NCBI GenBank assembly: GCA_016928495.1
Contig: JAFGKQ010000168.1
Location: 1-8,287 of the forward strand
Direction: 5' to 3'
DNA length: 8,287 nt
Source of the DNA: Candidatus Fermentibacterales bacterium
Lineage (GTDB): Bacteria; Fermentibacterota; Fermentibacteria; Fermentibacterales; JAFGKQ01
Positions 1 to 8,287 of the stretch are shown one piece after another. Made by a program: the position numbers and the translations under genes. The notes under the pieces were generated by a model. That model ran no database searches. It was not told the DNA's origin and saw nothing but the letters and a program-made list of their open reading frames with translations. Within the stretch, counting starts at the first letter, position 1. The number at the start of each line of letters is the position of its first letter.

Positions 1-1704
1 CCAATCGGACCTCTCCGCGGCGCTCGTCCATGCCAGCTCGATGTTCTGGAGCTCGCGCTCCAGTCCTATCACTGCAGTGCTCCTCTCCCCCTGGAGGAGC
101 TCCGGCTCTCTCGCGGCGAGGAGCCCGAGATAGTACTCGGAGTGTCTCCTCTCGACCTCGAGCCTGCGCTGGGGGTGTGCTTCGAGCTTTGTCCTGCCGT
201 GCTGACGCACGAGGGGGTGCATCACGAACCTGCCGGTGCCGGTCTGCTGGACCAGGGACTTGTCAACCAGGGCCACGAGTTGGCCGAACCGGGCGTCTGC
301 CACGGCTTTCGCGGCCAGCTTGTCGAACATGCCCCTGAAGACCGACACGCTCTCGAAGGCGATCTTCTCGTCCTCCGGCAGGAACCTCCAGGAGTAGTCG
401 AGAACCGCCGAGATGCCCGCCTGGCCGTGCGGCTCCGTCGCGGCCTCGCCTCGCAGGAAGCCGGGCTCCGTGATCTTCGACAGTATCTCCTTGATGCCCA
501 TGTGACGGGTCCAGGAAGAGGTCAGCTCGATCGCCAGGGGCAGGCCCCGGAGAGCTGAGCAGACCCCGACTATCGCCGAGACCTCCGCGGGCGAGTCCAT
601 GGGGTCCGCGGTCACCTTCGAGGCGGTCTCGAGGAACAGGCGGACGGCGTCGGACTTCATGTCCTCGAGCGTGCCCGAGTCGGTGAACTGCATTCCGCCG
701 ACCTCGACAACCTGCTCTCCCCTCACGCGAAGCCGCTCCCTGGATGTGATGAGGATCTTCGCGCGGGACGCCCCCATCAGGATCTCGCGGGGAACGCCGG
801 CCGATAAGGTGGTGAGATGATCGTAGCTGTCCAGGACTATCAGCGTGGCCCAGCGGCCGATGTGCTCCAGGAGCTCGTTCACCATGTCGCTCGAGCGGAA
901 GGCGTAGCCGATGCTGTCGGCTATCGCGCCCACCATCTGATCGGTGTTCTCCGAGGTCTCGAGTGGCACGAACCAGACGCCGTCAGGGAAGTCGTCGGAG
1001 GCTTCCGCGGCGGCCTGGAGAGCCAGCCTCGACTTGCCGCTGCCCCCCCGGCCGACCAGCGTCACCAGCTTCTTCCCGGGGTCGGCCAGCAGGTCGGTCA
1101 GCTTCGTCAGCTCCTCCGTGCGGCCGATGAATGGCGTGAGCTGCGTCGGGAGGTTGTTGGGCAGATCCGCCAGGGTGCAGATGGGCGGGAAGTCGGTGAC
1201 CGGCGTGTCCGGGCCTATGAGGTCATATAGCCTTTCCGGCTCTCCCAGGTCCTTCAGCCTCTGGACACCGAGGTCGCGGAGACTCGCTCCTTCCGGAACG
1301 GAGCACAGCTCCGCAGCCTCCCTGGACAGGACTATCTGACCGGCAGAGGCGGTATCCAGGATTCTCCGGGCACGGTCGACTACCCTGCCGAAGATCTCTC
1401 CTCCCCGCTCCAGAGCGGAGCCGGCGTGTATCGCGATCCTGACTGGTAGTGGCCCATCGGGCATCGTGTCGGGAGAGCAGACCCTCTTCTGGATCTCGAT
1501 CGCGCATCCCGGCCAGTCGGCATCCGGGGGAAAGACGGCGAAGACGCCCTCCGGGAGGCTCCTTGCCACACGCCCGCCGAAGTCGGATATGGCGGTGCCC
1601 ACTACCTGGTCGTGAAGTGTGAGAAGGCTGTCGGCGGCTGCGGGGTCCGTTTCCCGTCGCTCTGCGGGATCTTCCGTTCCGGTGAGGAAGAAGACCAGTC
1701 CCAT
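1..1704 (-). CDS. Pseudo-cyclase domain fused to STAND ATPase (partial, C-terminus outside window)
   Basis: The frame is open for 568 codons from an ATG at 1704 to the left edge, with no stop, so the C-terminus is missing. Residues 1-150 resemble a class III adenylate/guanylate cyclase domain: VRIAIHAG at 88-95, then FGRVVDRARRI at 105-115 and GQIVLS at 122-127. Catalytic positions are eroded. The LFTDIEGS-like strand reads VFFLTGTE (4-11) without Asp, the GD motif is PE (51-52), and the catalytic Asn is D110; only R114 remains. Cyclase activity is therefore unlikely. A STAND/NB-ARC-like ATPase follows: LTPFIGRTEEL at 189-199, P-loop GRGGSGKS at 218-225, Walker B-like LIVLDSYD around 288-295, ITSR at 319-322 and GLPLAIEL at 387-394. 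The ending matches 'predicted ATPase' regulators, which usually continue into TPRs. An in-frame TAG lies 10 codons upstream of a possible TTG start at 1731; ATG is preferred because GGTGG lies 4 bases upstream. The role is probably signal-responsive regulation; the ligand is unknown. Confidence 0.9.
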   Translation of the reverse strand, partial: MGLVFFLTGTEDPAERRETDPAAADSLLTLHDQVVGTAISDFGGRVARSLPEGVFAVFPPDADWPGCAIEIQKRVCSPDTMPDGPLPVRIAIHAGSALERGGEIFGRVVDRARRILDTASAGQIVLSREAAELCSVPEGASLRDLGVQRLKDLGEPERLYDLIGPDTPVTDFPPICTLADLPNNLPTQLTPFIGRTEELTKLTDLLADPGKKLVTLVGRGGSGKSRLALQAAAEASDDFPDGVWFVPLETSENTDQMVGAIADSIGYAFRSSDMVNELLEHIGRWATLIVLDSYDHLTTLSAGVPREILMGASRAKILITSRERLRVRGEQVVEVGGMQFTDSGTLEDMKSDAVRLFLETASKVTADPMDSPAEVSAIVGVCSALRGLPLAIELTSSWTRHMGIKEILSKITEPGFLRGEAATEPHGQAGISAVLDYSWRFLPEDEKIAFESVSVFRGMFDKLAAKAVADARFGQLVALVDKSLVQQTGTGRFVMHPLVRQHGRTKLEAHPQRRLEVERRHSEYYLGLLAAREPELLQGERSTAVIGLERELQNIELAWTSAAERSDW

Positions 1705-2072
1705 GCAACCACCATTTCCGATGCAGTGCAATGGAAACTACGAAACCCGCTCGTGATCGTCCAATGCAGGCGGCCTGGTCCGGAAGGGCGGCGACCCGCC
1801 CGGTTCCCCTGCGTACCGGATGGCAGGAGCACCAGGGACAGTGAGCCCTTCCGCCGGACAGGCGTGCCCGGGAGGCTCGAAGGCAATTGGCCGCCATGCG
1901 GATGGACTCCGCCCAGCCGACCGACGGCCAGCCCGGCCAGGGAAGCCCCAGCTTGATCCTGCCGAGGGTGGCGGGGAGAAGGGCGGTGGAGAGGTCGAGC
2001 GCCAGGTGAGAGGCGGTGGTCAGCCTGATGCCGGCAGCCCTGGTCGTGTTAGAGTACATGGCCCGGTATGAG

Positions 2073-2177: not shown

Positions 2178-5100
2178 ATGATCATCGGGCAGGATGGAGG
2201 TGACGACCTGCTCAATGTCATACCGCGCTTCATAGCCGCCATGGCCCGCGAGGGGAGAGCCCGCGGGAGCTTCTCCGGAAGCTCGGTCTTCGTGGATGTG
2301 TCGGGCTTCACCTCGATGACGGAGCGGCTGATGGCTCATGGCAAGAAGGGTGCCGAGGTGCTCTCCGGCATCATCAACAGCGTTTTCGCCCCGGCCGTTT
2401 CGAGGATCCGCCAGTCGGGGGGCTTCATCTCGAGCTTCGGGGGAGACTCCTTCATGGTGCTCCTGCCGGGGGGCACGACTCAGACTGCCAAGGCGCTGGC
2501 GGCGGCCCTCTGCGGTGCCATGGGGGCCAGATCGAGCCATGCCACCGAGCTGGGGGAGTTCGAGATAGCCGTGAGGACGGGAGTATCCGAGGGGCAGGTC
2601 GAATGGGGAATTCTCGGCTCCCGGGGACGCAGGTGCTACTACTTCCGCGGAGACCCGGTGGCGGAGTGCGCCCGCTCGGCTGTCGCGGCTCCAGTCAGCG
2701 CATCCCATCTACCTGACGCCACCCGCCCGCCCGGAAGCAAGCCGGACCGGGCCGGGGAGGTGCGCGTCTCACGCTCGATCGCCAGGCTGTTCGCCCCGGA
2801 GGTCGTGCTCTCGAGCCCGCCGGGAGGCGAGTTCAGGGATGTCCTGCCTGTCTTCATCAGCTTCGAGGAGCCGGGCGGGCACGAGGATCTGGCGCGCTTC
2901 GCGGACATCGTGCTCGGGGCAGCGGAGAGCTTCGGGGGTTGCGTGACTGGGCTCTACTTCGAGGAGAAGGGCCCTCTCTTCCTCGTGCTCTTCGGGGCGC
3001 CCTCGTCGTACGAGCACCAGGTCTCCAGGGCTGCAGGGTTCGCCCTCGCGGTCCGGGACGGGTCGAGCACGGGCTGCAGGATGGCGATCACCCAGGGAGT
3101 CGCCTTCGCAGGGTTCGTTGGCAATCGCGGCCGCTGCAGCTACACGGCCCTGGGCGACACGGTCAACACCGCTGCCAGGATCGCCTGCCAGGCCGAGTGG
3201 GGCAGCGTGCTGGTCTCCGGGTCCGCCGCGGGCGCACTGGAGAGCGGGTTCGAGCTGTCTGCGGGTCCCCGGCTTCGACTCAGAGGCAAGAGGTCTCCCG
3301 TCCCCACGATGAAGCTCGAGCGGAGACTGGCCGGTGGCCGCGCGGTTCTGTTCGACACGGGCATGGTCGGTCGCAAGAGGGAGCTCCGGCAGCTTCGGGC
3401 TGCGATCCGGGGGATCCTGGACGACGGCTCCTCCGGAGGGGTCCGGTACGTCTACGGGGAGGCGGGAGCGGGCAAGTCGCTGCTGGTCGACCGCGCTCTC
3501 GAGCCGTTCCGGGATCGTTGCCTGATCGCACTGATGGAGTGCGACGACATCCTGCGCAAGAGCCTGAATCCGTTCACCGCCTTCCTGAGAGGGCTGTTCG
3601 GCCAGGCTCCGGACCAGAGCCGTGAGGACGCAATACGAGCTTTCGATGCCGGTCTCGAAGCCATCGTTGCGCGGCTTCGCGGCCTCGAGGATCAGGACGG
3701 GAGACGGGCGGCCGAGGAGCTGGAGAGGCTGCGTAGCGTGCTCGGTGCCCTGATCGGGCTGTCCTGGCCCGGCTCGCTCTACGAGAGCCTGGGCGCGAGA
3801 ACGAGGTTCGAGAACACCCTGCTCGCGCTGAAGGAGCTGGTCAGGGGCCTCAGCCTGCTGCAGCCAGTGGTGATCGTGCTGGAGGACCTTCAGTGGGCGG
3901 ACAGCGATACACTGAAGGCCTTGCGTGCCCTGACCAGGAACGTCGAGCGGCTCCCGTTGCTGGTGATCGCCACCGCCAGGATCCTCGACGACGGGTCACG
4001 GCCCGCGCTCGAGCTGGACGAAGGGATCAGGCGGGAATCCCTGCTGCTGGGGGACCTCAGGGCCGAGGCGGCGCTCGAGCTGGAATCGGAGGTGCTCGGA
4101 GGTCCTCCCGACTCCGGGCTGGCAGGCCTGATCGAGGAGAGGTGTGGGGGAAATCCCTTCTACATCAGGCAGTTCTGCCTTCACCTGCGCGAGGGCGGGC
4201 TGATCGGCCTCAGGGACTGGCAAGCGGCTCTGACCGGGCCGGCAGAAGGCGTGCCGACCGGAGTGAAGGCCCTTCTGATAGCCAGGCTTGACAGGCTCTC
4301 CGCCAGGTTGCGGGATCTCGTGCAGACTGCATCGGTTCTTGGCCGGGAGTTCAACATCAGGGTGCTCTCGCTGATGCTGAGGGGCAGGGACGTCCGTCCG
4401 ATGGTCGAGTCGGTCGACCTGTTGTCGATCTGGGCGCCCCTGAGCGAGATGCTGTTCATCTTCCGGCACGACCTGATGAGAGAGGCCGCCTACGACATGC
4501 AGCTCGGCAGGCGAGTCAGGAGGCTTCACAGGCTTGCGGCGGAGGCTCTCGAGGACCTCTTCGCCGATGAGCCCGGCATGCTCGCCGACATCGCGTTCCA
4601 CTTCGATCGGGCTGGAGTGGCCGGCAAGGCGCGGCGCTATCTTGTCCTTGCGGCGGACCATGCCGAGAGCGCCTACCGCAACGACCACGCACTGGAGCTG
4701 CTCGGCAAGCTGCGGGATCACTACGCAGAGGGCTCGAGGAGACGCAACGAGCTTGCCTGCAGGATGCTGGGGCTGCTGCAGAGGACGGGGGACTGGAAGC
4801 GCGCGGAGAAGCTCGCCAGAGACACTCTGGAGTCGAGCGGGATGCGGGGTCAGAGGGCCCTGGAGGTCAGGTGCCTGATCCGTCTCGGCAGCCTTCTCAC
4901 ATCCATGGGCCAGACGGCGGAGGCGAGGCAGCTTCTGACCACGGCGGCAACGGAGGCAGGAAGGCTGAGGGATCAGGTCAGGAAGGCCGAGGCGCTCATC
5001 GAGCTCTCCACGCTCACGGTCAACGAGGGTGACTACGAGGGCGGGATGAGAGTGCTCCGGAAGGCGAAGAAGGCGGCGGAGAGGGCCGGGGACCGGTCGC

Positions 5101-6317
5101 TGATCGGTTCTTCTCTCAACAGCATCGGCAGGGTACACACCTTCCGTGGCGAGTACGACCAGGCTCTGGAGGCCCTCCAGCAGTACGCGGCAATGGCAGA
5201 GGAGTCGGGCGACCTGAAGGCCATGTGCACCGCTGGCTACAACATCGGCGTCATCAACTACTACACGGGACTCCGCGAGAAGGGGCTGAAGGCGTTCGAG
5301 ACCGCGCTCGAGACCGCAAGGAAGATCGGAGATCGCAGGACGATGGGTCTGGCCATCGGCAGTATAGGGTCCGTTCTCGCGGAGCGCGGTGATCGGGACA
5401 GGGCTCTGGATTGCCAGCGCGAGAAGCTGCGAATAGCCAGGGAGATGGACGACAAGGTCGCCATGCTGTTCGCCCTGGGCAACATCGGCCTGTCCCACTT
5501 CTACGGGGAGGAGTACGAAGAGGCCCTCGAATACTACGGGGAATACATGGAGATAGCGCGTGCCACCGGCTCCAGGGTGGAGATCTGCAGGATGCTGGGG
5601 AGCATCGGCAACGTCTACGGCAAGCTGCTGGACTACGAGAAGGCCGAGCGCAACTACGAGGAGATGCTGAAGCTGGCCGAGGAGCTCGGCGACGCCAGCC
5701 AATGGCTGGCGGCCCTGCGGTTCTGCGGCTGGATCAGGATGGAGAGGGGAAGGGTGGAGGAGTCGCGGGAGCTCCTCGAGAAGGGCCTGCGGCATGCGAG
5801 GGAGATCAGGTCTACCACCGATGTTCTCTACTTCCTGGGCTCTCTGGCCAGTCTCGAGACCTTCCTGGGGAACCACGAGGCGGTGGTCGGTCTACTCTCG
5901 GAGGGCCTGGCCATCGCACGGGAGGTAGGAGATGGTCCGGAGCTCGTGGACAAGCTGGCCGGACTGGCCTCGGCATCGCTGGAGCTGGGACGCGCAGGGG
6001 AAGCGGAGGCATACGCGACGGAGGCACTCGAGGCCTCCCGTGAGACTCCCTGCGAGTCGGCCGAGTGGTCTTCGCGGCTGGTTCTCGTGAGGCTCCGGGC
6101 CCGGAAGGACCGAGCGGGGGCCCTGAAGGCGCTCGAGGCGATGATCGAGCAGAGCGACCACCCGGAGCGAACGGCTGAGCTCGTGACGGCCCGTTTCGAG
6201 CTGAGCGGGAAGGAGCCTCACAGGAGAGGGGCCCTGGAGGCCCTGGAGGCCCTCTACGAGAAGACCGGGTCGGTCCGCTACCCGAAGGAGATCGCAAGGC
6301 TGAAACGGAGGACATGA
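2178..6317 (+). CDS. Tandem class III adenylate cyclase-STAND ATPase-TPR protein, soluble adenylyl cyclase-like
   Basis: Encodes 1379 residues. Likely makes cAMP from ATP in the cytoplasm under control of its ATPase and TPR parts. Cyclase domain 1 (about 33-200) has FVDVSGFTSMTE with metal-ligand D40 and FGGDSF with D90, but A162 replaces the catalytic Asn. Domain 2 (about 218-380) has S228 in place of the first Asp, yet keeps K264 in YFEEKGPLF and YTALGDTVNTAAR (322-334) with T323, N330 and R334. One composite active site is expected. A STAND/AAA_16-type ATPase follows: MVGRKREL from 396, P-loop GEAGAGKS 427-434, Walker B VVIVLEDLQWAD 564-575, GGNPFYI around 657-663 and a helical/winged-helix segment near 698-735. 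From about 830 to the end are TPRs, including five exact 40-residue units (IG motifs ending at 984, 1024, 1064, 1104 and 1144). No signal peptide or membrane segment is seen. ATG 2178 was chosen because homology begins soon after it, but no Shine-Dalgarno is visible. In-frame GTG 2016, ATG 2028 and ATG 2058 are alternatives. Confidence 0.93.
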   Translation: MIIGQDGGDDLLNVIPRFIAAMAREGRARGSFSGSSVFVDVSGFTSMTERLMAHGKKGAEVLSGIINSVFAPAVSRIRQSGGFISSFGGDSFMVLLPGGTTQTAKALAAALCGAMGARSSHATELGEFEIAVRTGVSEGQVEWGILGSRGRRCYYFRGDPVAECARSAVAAPVSASHLPDATRPPGSKPDRAGEVRVSRSIARLFAPEVVLSSPPGGEFRDVLPVFISFEEPGGHEDLARFADIVLGAAESFGGCVTGLYFEEKGPLFLVLFGAPSSYEHQVSRAAGFALAVRDGSSTGCRMAITQGVAFAGFVGNRGRCSYTALGDTVNTAARIACQAEWGSVLVSGSAAGALESGFELSAGPRLRLRGKRSPVPTMKLERRLAGGRAVLFDTGMVGRKRELRQLRAAIRGILDDGSSGGVRYVYGEAGAGKSLLVDRALEPFRDRCLIALMECDDILRKSLNPFTAFLRGLFGQAPDQSREDAIRAFDAGLEAIVARLRGLEDQDGRRAAEELERLRSVLGALIGLSWPGSLYESLGARTRFENTLLALKELVRGLSLLQPVVIVLEDLQWADSDTLKALRALTRNVERLPLLVIATARILDDGSRPALELDEGIRRESLLLGDLRAEAALELESEVLGGPPDSGLAGLIEERCGGNPFYIRQFCLHLREGGLIGLRDWQAALTGPAEGVPTGVKALLIARLDRLSARLRDLVQTASVLGREFNIRVLSLMLRGRDVRPMVESVDLLSIWAPLSEMLFIFRHDLMREAAYDMQLGRRVRRLHRLAAEALEDLFADEPGMLADIAFHFDRAGVAGKARRYLVLAADHAESAYRNDHALELLGKLRDHYAEGSRRRNELACRMLGLLQRTGDWKRAEKLARDTLESSGMRGQRALEVRCLIRLGSLLTSMGQTAEARQLLTTAATEAGRLRDQVRKAEALIELSTLTVNEGDYEGGMRVLRKAKKAAERAGDRSLIGSSLNSIGRVHTFRGEYDQALEALQQYAAMAEESGDLKAMCTAGYNIGVINYYTGLREKGLKAFETALETARKIGDRRTMGLAIGSIGSVLAERGDRDRALDCQREKLRIAREMDDKVAMLFALGNIGLSHFYGEEYEEALEYYGEYMEIARATGSRVEICRMLGSIGNVYGKLLDYEKAERNYEEMLKLAEELGDASQWLAALRFCGWIRMERGRVEESRELLEKGLRHAREIRSTTDVLYFLGSLASLETFLGNHEAVVGLLSEGLAIAREVGDGPELVDKLAGLASASLELGRAGEAEAYATEALEASRETPCESAEWSSRLVLVRLRARKDRAGALKALEAMIEQSDHPERTAELVTARFELSGKEPHRRGALEALEALYEKTGSVRYPKEIARLKRRT
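6307..6311 (+). promoter_or_regulatory. Ribosome binding site inside the end of the cyclase gene
   Basis: GGAGG lies in the last codons of the cyclase gene. It is 2 bases before ATG 6314, too close for good initiation, and 8 bases before ATG 6320, which is near ideal. It therefore favours 6320 as the start of the SH3-like gene and suggests translational coupling to the cyclase gene. Confidence 0.6.
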
Positions 6318-6319
6318 CG

Positions 6320-6928
6320 ATGATGCCTCTCTCCGTGCAGATAGCAGCGGCGCTGGCCCAGGGGCTTCTTTCTCTCTCGGCGCCCCTGCTCTCGTCATCG
6401 CTCCAGGGCCAGTTCGACGGTATGCCCGCCACGGCTCTGGGGGAGACCCGGGTCTACATGCGCCCGGGCGAGGAGTCCGATCCGTTCGGGCTGCTCTCGC
6501 CGGGAGAGTCGGTCCTCCTGGTGGCTGCGACCCACGATGGCTGGCTGGGACTCGATCCCGGAGTCGCGCAGGCCGACAACGTCGGGGAGCTGAGACTGAG
6601 GTGGATCCCGCCCGGCTCGCCCGTCGAGGCCTCGGGATCCCTGGATGACCTTCCCTTCGTATGGGCCCCCTCGCCACGGGCCACCTACTGCATGTGCCAC
6701 GACTCCCTCCGCCTCTACGAAATGCCGGAGTCGTCCGCCGTCGTCTTCTGTACCCTCTCACCCGGAGCGATCGCGAGGGTGCTGGGCAGAATCGAGAGAG
6801 GCTGGCTACTGCTCGGCGGCGGCGACGCGAACCGTGGCAGCTTCGTCCAGGCATGGACGCCTCTGGCCGGTGTCTCGATCAACGGGCTCCTGGACACCGT
6901 TCCGGTCCTCTACGACTGGAACAACTGA
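6320..6928 (+). CDS. Secreted or membrane-anchored protein with two SH3-like domains
   Basis: Encodes 202 residues from ATG 6320. Starting at ATG 6314 would add two residues and overlap the cyclase stop as ATGA; ATG 6323 is also possible. Residues 4-28 are hydrophobic and Ala/Leu/Ser-rich, like a signal peptide or anchor, but no Lys or Arg precedes them, so the export call is tentative. Residues about 43-97 look like a bacterial SH3-like (SH3b) domain: TRVYMRPGEESDPFGLLSPG, then a GW-containing strand (74-75) and a closing RWIPPGS. A second, weaker copy spans about 130-187: LRLYEMPESSAVVFCTLSPG, GW at 161-162 and FVQAWTPL. Cys124, Cys126 and Cys144 cluster around the start of the second copy. 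SH3b domains often bind peptidoglycan or peptides; the ligand here is unknown. The tight junction with the cyclase gene implies one transcript. No enzyme motif is seen. Confidence 0.8.
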   Translation: MMPLSVQIAAALAQGLLSLSAPLLSSSLQGQFDGMPATALGETRVYMRPGEESDPFGLLSPGESVLLVAATHDGWLGLDPGVAQADNVGELRLRWIPPGSPVEASGSLDDLPFVWAPSPRATYCMCHDSLRLYEMPESSAVVFCTLSPGAIARVLGRIERGWLLLGGGDANRGSFVQAWTPLAGVSINGLLDTVPVLYDWNN

Positions 6929-7429: not shown

Positions 7430-8287
7430 ATGAGATCCAGTCTCCCCGTGCTCACGGTGCTGATCCTGGTGCTGGCATCCTGCGACACTGCAGGGCCGGG
7501 CTCCGGGTCGGGCTATCCCGACAGGGTGCTGGCCTACATAGCCGGAAGCAGCCAGCCCCCGTTCGGGGTGTGCGTGCTTCCCGACGGGCAGTACGTCTAC
7601 GTCAGCCACGACGGCAGCGAGGGCGTGATCGTCTACGGAATGGCCGAGGGCCAGACCGTTGCCGAGATCCCTCTCGGGAACTACTCCAGGGGCATGGATT
7701 CCACTCCCGACGGCAACTACGTCTACGTCACCGGACGCTACAGCGATGACCTCACCGTGGTGCGGACCTCTACCAACACCGTCCACAGGGTCATAGCCGG
7801 GTTCAGCGATCCTTGTGATGTAACTGTCCTTCCCAACGGGCAATACGCCTACGTGTCGAGCTCGGGCAGCGACGAGGTCGTGGTGGTAGAGACGGCCAGC
7901 AACTCGATTGTCGATGCCATCGGGGTGGGTTGCGAGCCCGATGGCGTGGTCTGCACGCCGGACGGTGACTACGTCTACGTCGTCAACCACGGAAGCGACA
8001 ACGTCCTGGTCATCGATACGAGCGACAACGGCATAGTGGCAGACACTCCGGTCGGGTTCGGCCCTCGCTGCGCGGCGGTCATGCCGAACGGGGAGTACGT
8101 CTACGTCACCAACAGCTTCGACAACACCGTCTCGGTTCTGAGGACTTCCGACCACACGGTCGTGGCGACGATAGCTGTGGGCTCCGCCCCTATCGGCGTT
8201 GCGGCCCTTCCGGGTGACGATCACGTCTACGTCGCGGAGTCGGGGGACAACACCGTTGCCATCATCTGCACCGGGGACAACACGGTC
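7430..8287 (+). CDS. YVTN-repeat beta-propeller lipoprotein (partial, C-terminus outside window)
   Basis: The frame stays open for 286 codons to the right edge with no stop. Residues 1-18 form a lipoprotein signal peptide: an Arg at 2, hydrophobic residues 5-16 and lipobox LASC (15-18), with C18 the lipid-modified cysteine. A short Gly/Ser/Pro linker (22-30) follows. From residue 45 the protein consists of YVTN-family beta-propeller repeats. Tyr-Val-Tyr-Val or close variants start at 55, 97, 139, 181, 223 and 265, exactly 42 residues apart, each preceded by a P(D/N)G turn (PGD in the sixth) and usually followed by an xxS/xN segment and a VxV(V/I) strand. Six blades are visible; the family often forms seven, so more is expected outside. 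Extra cysteines occur at 48, 129, 168, 175, 214 and 280. Such proteins are exported and usually bind ligands or surfaces; the partner is unknown. AAGGGA (7418-7423) lies 6 bases before the ATG. Confidence 0.92.
   Translation, partial: MRSSLPVLTVLILVLASCDTAGPGSGSGYPDRVLAYIAGSSQPPFGVCVLPDGQYVYVSHDGSEGVIVYGMAEGQTVAEIPLGNYSRGMDSTPDGNYVYVTGRYSDDLTVVRTSTNTVHRVIAGFSDPCDVTVLPNGQYAYVSSSGSDEVVVVETASNSIVDAIGVGCEPDGVVCTPDGDYVYVVNHGSDNVLVIDTSDNGIVADTPVGFGPRCAAVMPNGEYVYVTNSFDNTVSVLRTSDHTVVATIAVGSAPIGVAALPGDDHVYVAESGDNTVAIICTGDNTV
7577..8233 (+). repeat. 126-bp periodic coding repeat (six propeller blades)
   Basis: Tandem units encode the YVTN blades. The 12-mer TACGTCTACGTC, or a near copy, recurs at 7592, 7718, 7844, 7970, 8096 and 8222, exactly 126 bases apart each time. 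The third copy (TACGCCTACGTG) and the sixth (CACGTCTACGTC) deviate slightly. Sequence between the cores has diverged more, so the array is old at the protein level with its core turn still conserved at DNA level. Confidence 0.85.

Follow-up and report, generated by a model that had tools for sequence, protein, structure and literature searches.

Human soluble adenylyl cyclase (sAC, or ADCY10; PDB entries 4clk, 4clf, and 4usu) carries two cyclase homology domains (C1 and C2) in tandem on one chain, and these domains form one composite site. A P-loop ATPase and a TPR region lie C-terminal to the cyclases in ADCY10. CyaC of Spirulina platensis (1wc0-1wc6), which has the same class III fold, contains a single cyclase domain per chain and is a homodimer with two sites, with the base lysine present. 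In sAC, the adenine pocket comprises A97, F296, F336, L345, and V411 together with the V406 carbonyl, and the second site is blocked by the extended C2 strands 2 and 3 together with the loop between them (PMC4506562). In Table 1 of a 2026 paper on sAC (PMC12867704), the role given for Lys334 is that it "recognizes ATP base (via H2O)," the C2 beta2/3 loop is assigned to residues 338 to 341 (FDKG), and K144 is named as the pyrophosphate "receptor"; K95 and R176 are the bicarbonate residues of sAC (PMC12867704). In guanylyl cyclases, Glu replaces the lysine, and the second base position is varied (including Ala, Gly, and Thr) (PMC4215837). Two consecutive cyclase domains are also found in Pycsar clade A (PMC11224242).

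We analyzed a window (i.e., the whole 8,287-nucleotide stretch of DNA) from the order of Candidatus Fermentibacter. An uninterrupted open reading frame on the plus strand (2178..6317; ATG at 2178 and stop at 6317) encodes 1,379 residues in the order C1, C2, AAA_16/STAND ATPase, and TPR (Pfam Guanylate_cyc, AAA_16, and TPR_12). The tandem cyclase domains lie within the N-terminal 386 residues, and all of the features described for this protein are on the plus strand. C1 (approximately residues 28 to 170; 2259..2687), the metal-binding half, was delimited by alignment with sAC C1 and by the strands and helices of a structural model. C2 (approximately residues 216 to 386; 2823..3335), the base-binding and transition-state half, was delimited by the model and by Pfam PF00211 at residues 268 to 372. 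The PF00211 match (E value, 1.3e-11; 44.9 bits versus a cutoff of 21.9) places the protein among the class III nucleotidyl cyclases. As in ADCY10, a P-loop ATPase and TPRs follow the cyclases. The AAA_16/STAND ATPase domain (residues 397 to 597; 3366..3968; PF13191, E value of 1.9e-21) has an intact Walker A motif (GEAGAGKS, 3456-3479) and an intact Walker B motif (VVIVLEDLQWAD, 3867-3902), and the TPR repeat region covers approximately residues 880 to 1294 (4815..6059; TPR_12, TPR_MalT, and others).

For both cyclase domains, human ADCY10 was the best sequence match among solved structures (phmmer E value, 3.2e-15). This homology is far beyond chance, with approximately 21% identity over the tandem, and the tandem cyclase domains of the original prediction are real. 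Our preferred reading, which we consider about two-thirds probable, is that of a bacterial, sAC-like class III nucleotidyl cyclase with one composite site that probably acts on ATP and is controlled by a fused STAND ATPase and TPR sensor. The cyclase-cyclase-STAND ATPase-TPR architecture is already known, and the part worth testing is a lineage-wide change in base recognition. Proteins with tandem cyclases, an AAA/STAND ATPase, and TPRs from Chloroflexota, Bacteroidota, WOR-3, and other groups are direct family members, with the same fixed catalytic residues and long open frames. Within the order, the family to which the window's genome belongs had no other member in the sample. We found no paper on Fermentibacter cyclases and, in a search of papers available without subscription, none on the bacterial tandem cyclase family.

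In a first survey, we aligned the tandem and the two stretches of sAC given in the HMMER output with 86 sequences drawn from its own and neighboring orders. A broad search through bacterial and archaeal genomes contributed another 82 sequences to the alignment, and near-duplicates were dropped. The resulting 152 nonredundant rows (including the sAC fragment) span several phyla. Five residues of the window protein (D40, D90, T323, N330, and R334) align with sAC D47, D99, T405, N412, and R416, respectively. Comparison with ADCY10, as proposed in the original prediction, thus brought the catalytic residues into register, but it left K264 off the base-lysine position.

Both of the predicted C1 metal ligands, i.e., D40 in FVDVSGFTSM (2295..2297; sAC D47) and D90 in FGGDSF (2445..2447; sAC D99), were invariant (Asp in 151 of the 151 rows having a residue and in 152 of 152 rows, respectively). 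R133 (2574..2576) occupies the position of the sAC pyrophosphate receptor K144, in a column with Lys or Arg in 137 of the 152 rows (K, 85; R, 52). The C2 residues named earlier (T323, N330, and R334) were also found where expected, in YTALGDTVNTAAR (3144..3179), in which T323, A324, N330, and R334 correspond to sAC T405, V406, N412, and R416. Asn was present in 152 of 152 rows at N330, Arg in 145 of 152 at R334, and Thr in 126 and Ser in 9 of 152 at T323. The median column entropy was 2.6 bits, compared with the invariant columns D40, D90, and N330. The class III residue set is therefore complete across the interface, with D40 and D90 in C1 complemented by N330 and R334 in C2, all of which are invariant or nearly so.

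The second site lacks its metal and Asn/Arg residues. The alignment placed A162 (2661..2663) at the catalytic Asn position of C1 and S228 (2859..2861) at the lost first metal Asp of C2, as had been read from the sequence, and both columns are variable (D, 32; R, 21; E, 15; A, 14; and N, 13 of 152 for the former; S, 65; N, 23; and T, 16 of 152 for the latter). No second Asp, Asn, or Arg aligned at this site.

An AlphaFold2 model of the tandem was built from a 40-sequence alignment (mean pLDDT, 90.8; pTM, 0.90; ligand free). In this model, C1 packs against C2 within one chain, like in nucleotide-bound sAC. The 24 best Foldseek matches were all human sAC entries, and VIA-align superposed the model on the sAC-AMPCPP complex 4clk over both domains (Z score, 39.6; 369 residues; 2.8 Å), making ADCY10 the best fold match. 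Cya2 (2w01; Z score, 20.9) and CyaC (aligned to C2; Z score, 20.0) have the same fold. The superposition on sAC over the whole tandem supports C1-C2 pairing within a single chain in the modeled structure. Because the complementary residues are conserved in the 152 relatives and the model packs C1 and C2 like nucleotide-bound sAC, one intramolecular, ADCY10-like composite site with a degenerate second site is well supported by alignment and model, as originally proposed. At this predicted site, C1 would supply D40 and D90 to hold the metals and R133 as the probable pyrophosphate residue, while C2 would supply T323, N330, and R334. R334 would contact the alpha-phosphate, N330 would act at the transition state or the product step, and cyclization would be metal dependent.

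A tandem that only binds nucleotide, as a regulatory pseudoenzyme module of the STAND ATPase that performs no cyclization, would not demand the observed invariance of the metal aspartates and the transition-state Asn in 152 homologs or the retention of R334 in 145, and we regard this explanation as very unlikely. It has some appeal given PDB entry 6yii, an inactive-looking tandem relative whose title describes a class III adenylyl cyclase-like ATP-binding protein (Z score, 25.6; our literature search on this entry returned nothing relevant), the loss of the base lysine, and a cyclase-like domain in the neighboring gene that appears degenerate on sequence inspection.

The window protein departs from ADCY10 at the base-recognizing lysine. 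The original prediction had designated K264 (2967..2969) as an adenine-selecting lysine, which would mean an adenylyl cyclase in which a Lys-Thr pair, K264/T323, picks out ATP just as in ADCY10 and CyaC. T323 does sit at the sAC T405 position, and K264 supplies a lysine, although it falls a few residues downstream of the proper position. However, the pairing printed by HMMER (query, sfGGCVTGLYFEEKGPLFLVLFG; sAC, ifQGQINKVFMFDKGCSFLCVFG) is gapless, and K264 therefore pairs with sAC K340, and G258 (2949..2951) pairs with K334, the base-recognizing lysine. The substitutions relative to sAC are K334 to G258 and F336 to Y260. The same gapless pairing sets EEKG over the FDKG of the sAC C2 beta2/3 loop, so that the loop is shared by the two proteins (DKG in sAC and EKG here), and the extension of the C2 strands is likewise present (beta2, residues 255 to 262; beta3, residues 265 to 272 in the model). 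K264 lies in the modeled beta2/beta3 hairpin turn, and G258 is in midstrand. Since K264 is aligned to the sAC loop (PMC12867704, Table 1), it is part of the loop that closes off the degenerate site, and this K264-bearing loop matches the sAC extension that blocks the second site.

Several relatives separate the two positions directly. In the relative L111 (GGYFNKIDFGDKG) and similar sequences, and in relatives with NKID-FGDKG, one lysine occupies the base position and another the loop; the base and loop positions are therefore distinct. The gapless alignment and the modeled turn rule out K264 as the adenine lysine, and we find selection of ATP by a K264/T323 pair scarcely credible. Of the Lys/Thr pair, the Thr is present (T323) and the lysine is replaced (G258).

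Residues at the base positions varied among the relatives. In the first survey, position 258 was Gly in 57 of 86 sequences and Lys in 10 of 86; in the full alignment, G (59), K (33), R (14), E (10), and Q (9) were the chief residues among the 152 rows. This column is as variable as the average column, whereas the catalytic residues are fixed. The 258/323 pairs in the 152 rows were chiefly G/T, K/T, and R/T, and E258 went with A323 in 8 of 10 cases and Q258 with G323 in 7 of 9. Many bacterial tandem relatives, chiefly Chloroflexota, retain K/T, and others have E/A or Q/G, while G/T is typical of the order and is also the pair in the window protein. The E/A relatives (L119, L120, L124, L130, L131, L132, L135, and L148) are seven Bacteroidota (chiefly Saprospiraceae/Lewinella) and one Chloroflexota; their residues resemble those of guanylyl cyclases, which makes them candidate bacterial sAC-like cGMP producers. 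The Q/G relatives (L133, L170, L174, L175, L179, L181, and L182) are mostly Chloroflexota. An independent-pairs test on positions 258 and 323 gave two to three changes in the same direction and none in the opposite direction (median P value, 0.5), reflecting few independent changes, and the association of G258 with an aromatic residue at 260 is a lineage effect involving approximately two changes at 258. As read from the alignment, the residue pairs follow lineages, and we do not offer them as proof of coevolution. The aligned sequences indicate that the base-recognizing lysine is missing in the window protein and in most close relatives, i.e., that its loss is lineage-wide.

Given that K264 is a loop residue and that the K334 position is occupied by G258, the Lys/Thr argument for ATP made in the original prediction falls. 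ATP is not read directly from the sequence because G258 replaces the base-recognizing lysine, and T323 alone cannot identify ATP because guanylyl cyclases vary at this position, Thr included (PMC4215837). The predicted product, cAMP, can still be reached by another, weaker argument. The equivalents of the sAC adenine pocket in the window protein are G88, F226, Y260 (2955..2957; at the F336 position), L269, V329, and A324, which suggests that the hydrophobic pocket is largely kept. We retain ATP as the likeliest substrate because most of the sAC adenine pocket survives, and conversion of ATP to cAMP is, on this evidence, the probable reaction. Less certainly than the composite site itself, ATP would sit in the hydrophobic pocket formed by F226, Y260, L269, and V329, and the A324 backbone carbonyl would accept a hydrogen bond from adenine N6. 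With Gly at position 258, the contact that the sAC lysine makes through water is missing, and base selectivity may therefore be relaxed.

An active composite-site cyclase with its base lysine replaced might instead make mainly a product other than cAMP, or a mixture (e.g., cGMP or a cyclic pyrimidine nucleotide). The variation of the base position at the level of an average column alongside fixed catalytic residues fits such an enzyme, as do the relatives with guanylyl cyclase-like E258 and A323 (PMC4215837) and the Pycsar cyclases, in which class III enzymes can use UTP or CTP by means of different base residues (PMC11224242). However, guanylyl cyclases such as Cya2, in which the base lysine is also replaced, have Glu rather than Gly (the Cya2 pair is E-G) (PMC4215837), and no guanine- or pyrimidine-specific counterpart of G258 is known. 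T323 persists here together with the hydrophobic adenine pocket, and changes to the lysine do not abolish ATP use, as demonstrated by Ma1120 K101E, a lysine-to-Glu variant that still made cAMP (PMC4215837). We thus view a main product other than cAMP as unlikely, if clearly the strongest competitor to ATP conversion to cAMP.

The window protein shares the class III fold with the Pycsar pyrimidine cyclases (PycC), and the PADLOC PycC model matched C1 (E value, 1.2e-14). Pycsar membership was rejected since this match is confined to C1 and no Pycsar effector gene was present among the window genes; no CNB domain was detected by Pfam in the window's five translated genes.

The degenerate second site had been predicted to be possibly regulatory. 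Such a role is possible, but not through the bicarbonate mechanism of sAC. Of the two bicarbonate residues, K95 is replaced by S86, and R176 is replaced by A165, the latter read by carrying the gapless register beyond the aligned sAC stretch. Bicarbonate sensing of the sAC type was accordingly rejected. Judging from domain content, the STAND/TPR region would sense a ligand, alter the C1-C2 geometry, and switch cyclization on.

The source genome yielded nine matches to class III cyclases, including a stand-alone single-domain cyclase, L001, that has the customary Lys (GGYVDKFEGD). A single cyclase domain of this genome that is fused to a long frame (L103; G000:C291) has, unlike its sister L001, Ser at the expected catalytic Asn (GEEVSMASR). 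There are also five matches to cNMP-binding domains, on short or partial frames that are putative cAMP binders, and such domains were present in 42 of the 42 order genomes searched. Because of the nine cyclase matches and the cNMP-binding domains in the genome and the order, cyclic-nucleotide signaling in the source organism is plausible; none of these matches specifies which product the window protein makes. Tandem-cyclase matches are multiplied in the genomes of the order (G001-G041; 2 to 4 Mb), with up to 12 per genome (G026), and one genome outside the order (G071) has 25.

The flanking genes in the window do not form a conserved operon with the cyclase, being absent beside six relatives except for one distant propeller match, and the neighbors do not inform function because they are not shared with these six relatives. 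A divergent neighbor (1-1731, minus strand), which runs off the contig end, has an N-terminal cyclase-like domain followed by an NB-ARC/AAA ATPase; by eye, the cyclase-like domain looks degenerate, with no metal Asp at either position. The next open reading frame downstream (6314-6928, plus strand) overlaps the cyclase stop codon (ATGA), is apparently secreted, and has a weak SH3-like match; it was not found beside the six relatives. Positions 7430-8287 (plus strand) encode a truncated beta-propeller of the YncE/lactonase-like type whose start resembles that of a lipoprotein, and a distant match lies beside the relative L185.

A split site of the ADCY10 type occurs widely among bacteria and is strongly conserved there, whereas the residue thought to choose the base varies. 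The label "adenylate cyclase" is unsafe for the tandem family from sequence alone. Should the window protein make cAMP, sAC-like enzymes can do without the lysine; should it not, such proteins represent an untapped source of other cyclic nucleotides. A broader proposal, which we hold to be rather improbable, is that an ADCY10-like subfamily dominant in the Fermentibacter order has kept the composite chemistry and lost the base lysine, so that its product is not cAMP or is a mixture, with the E/A and Q/G sister clades making others. If true, one enzyme architecture would have several second-messenger outputs.
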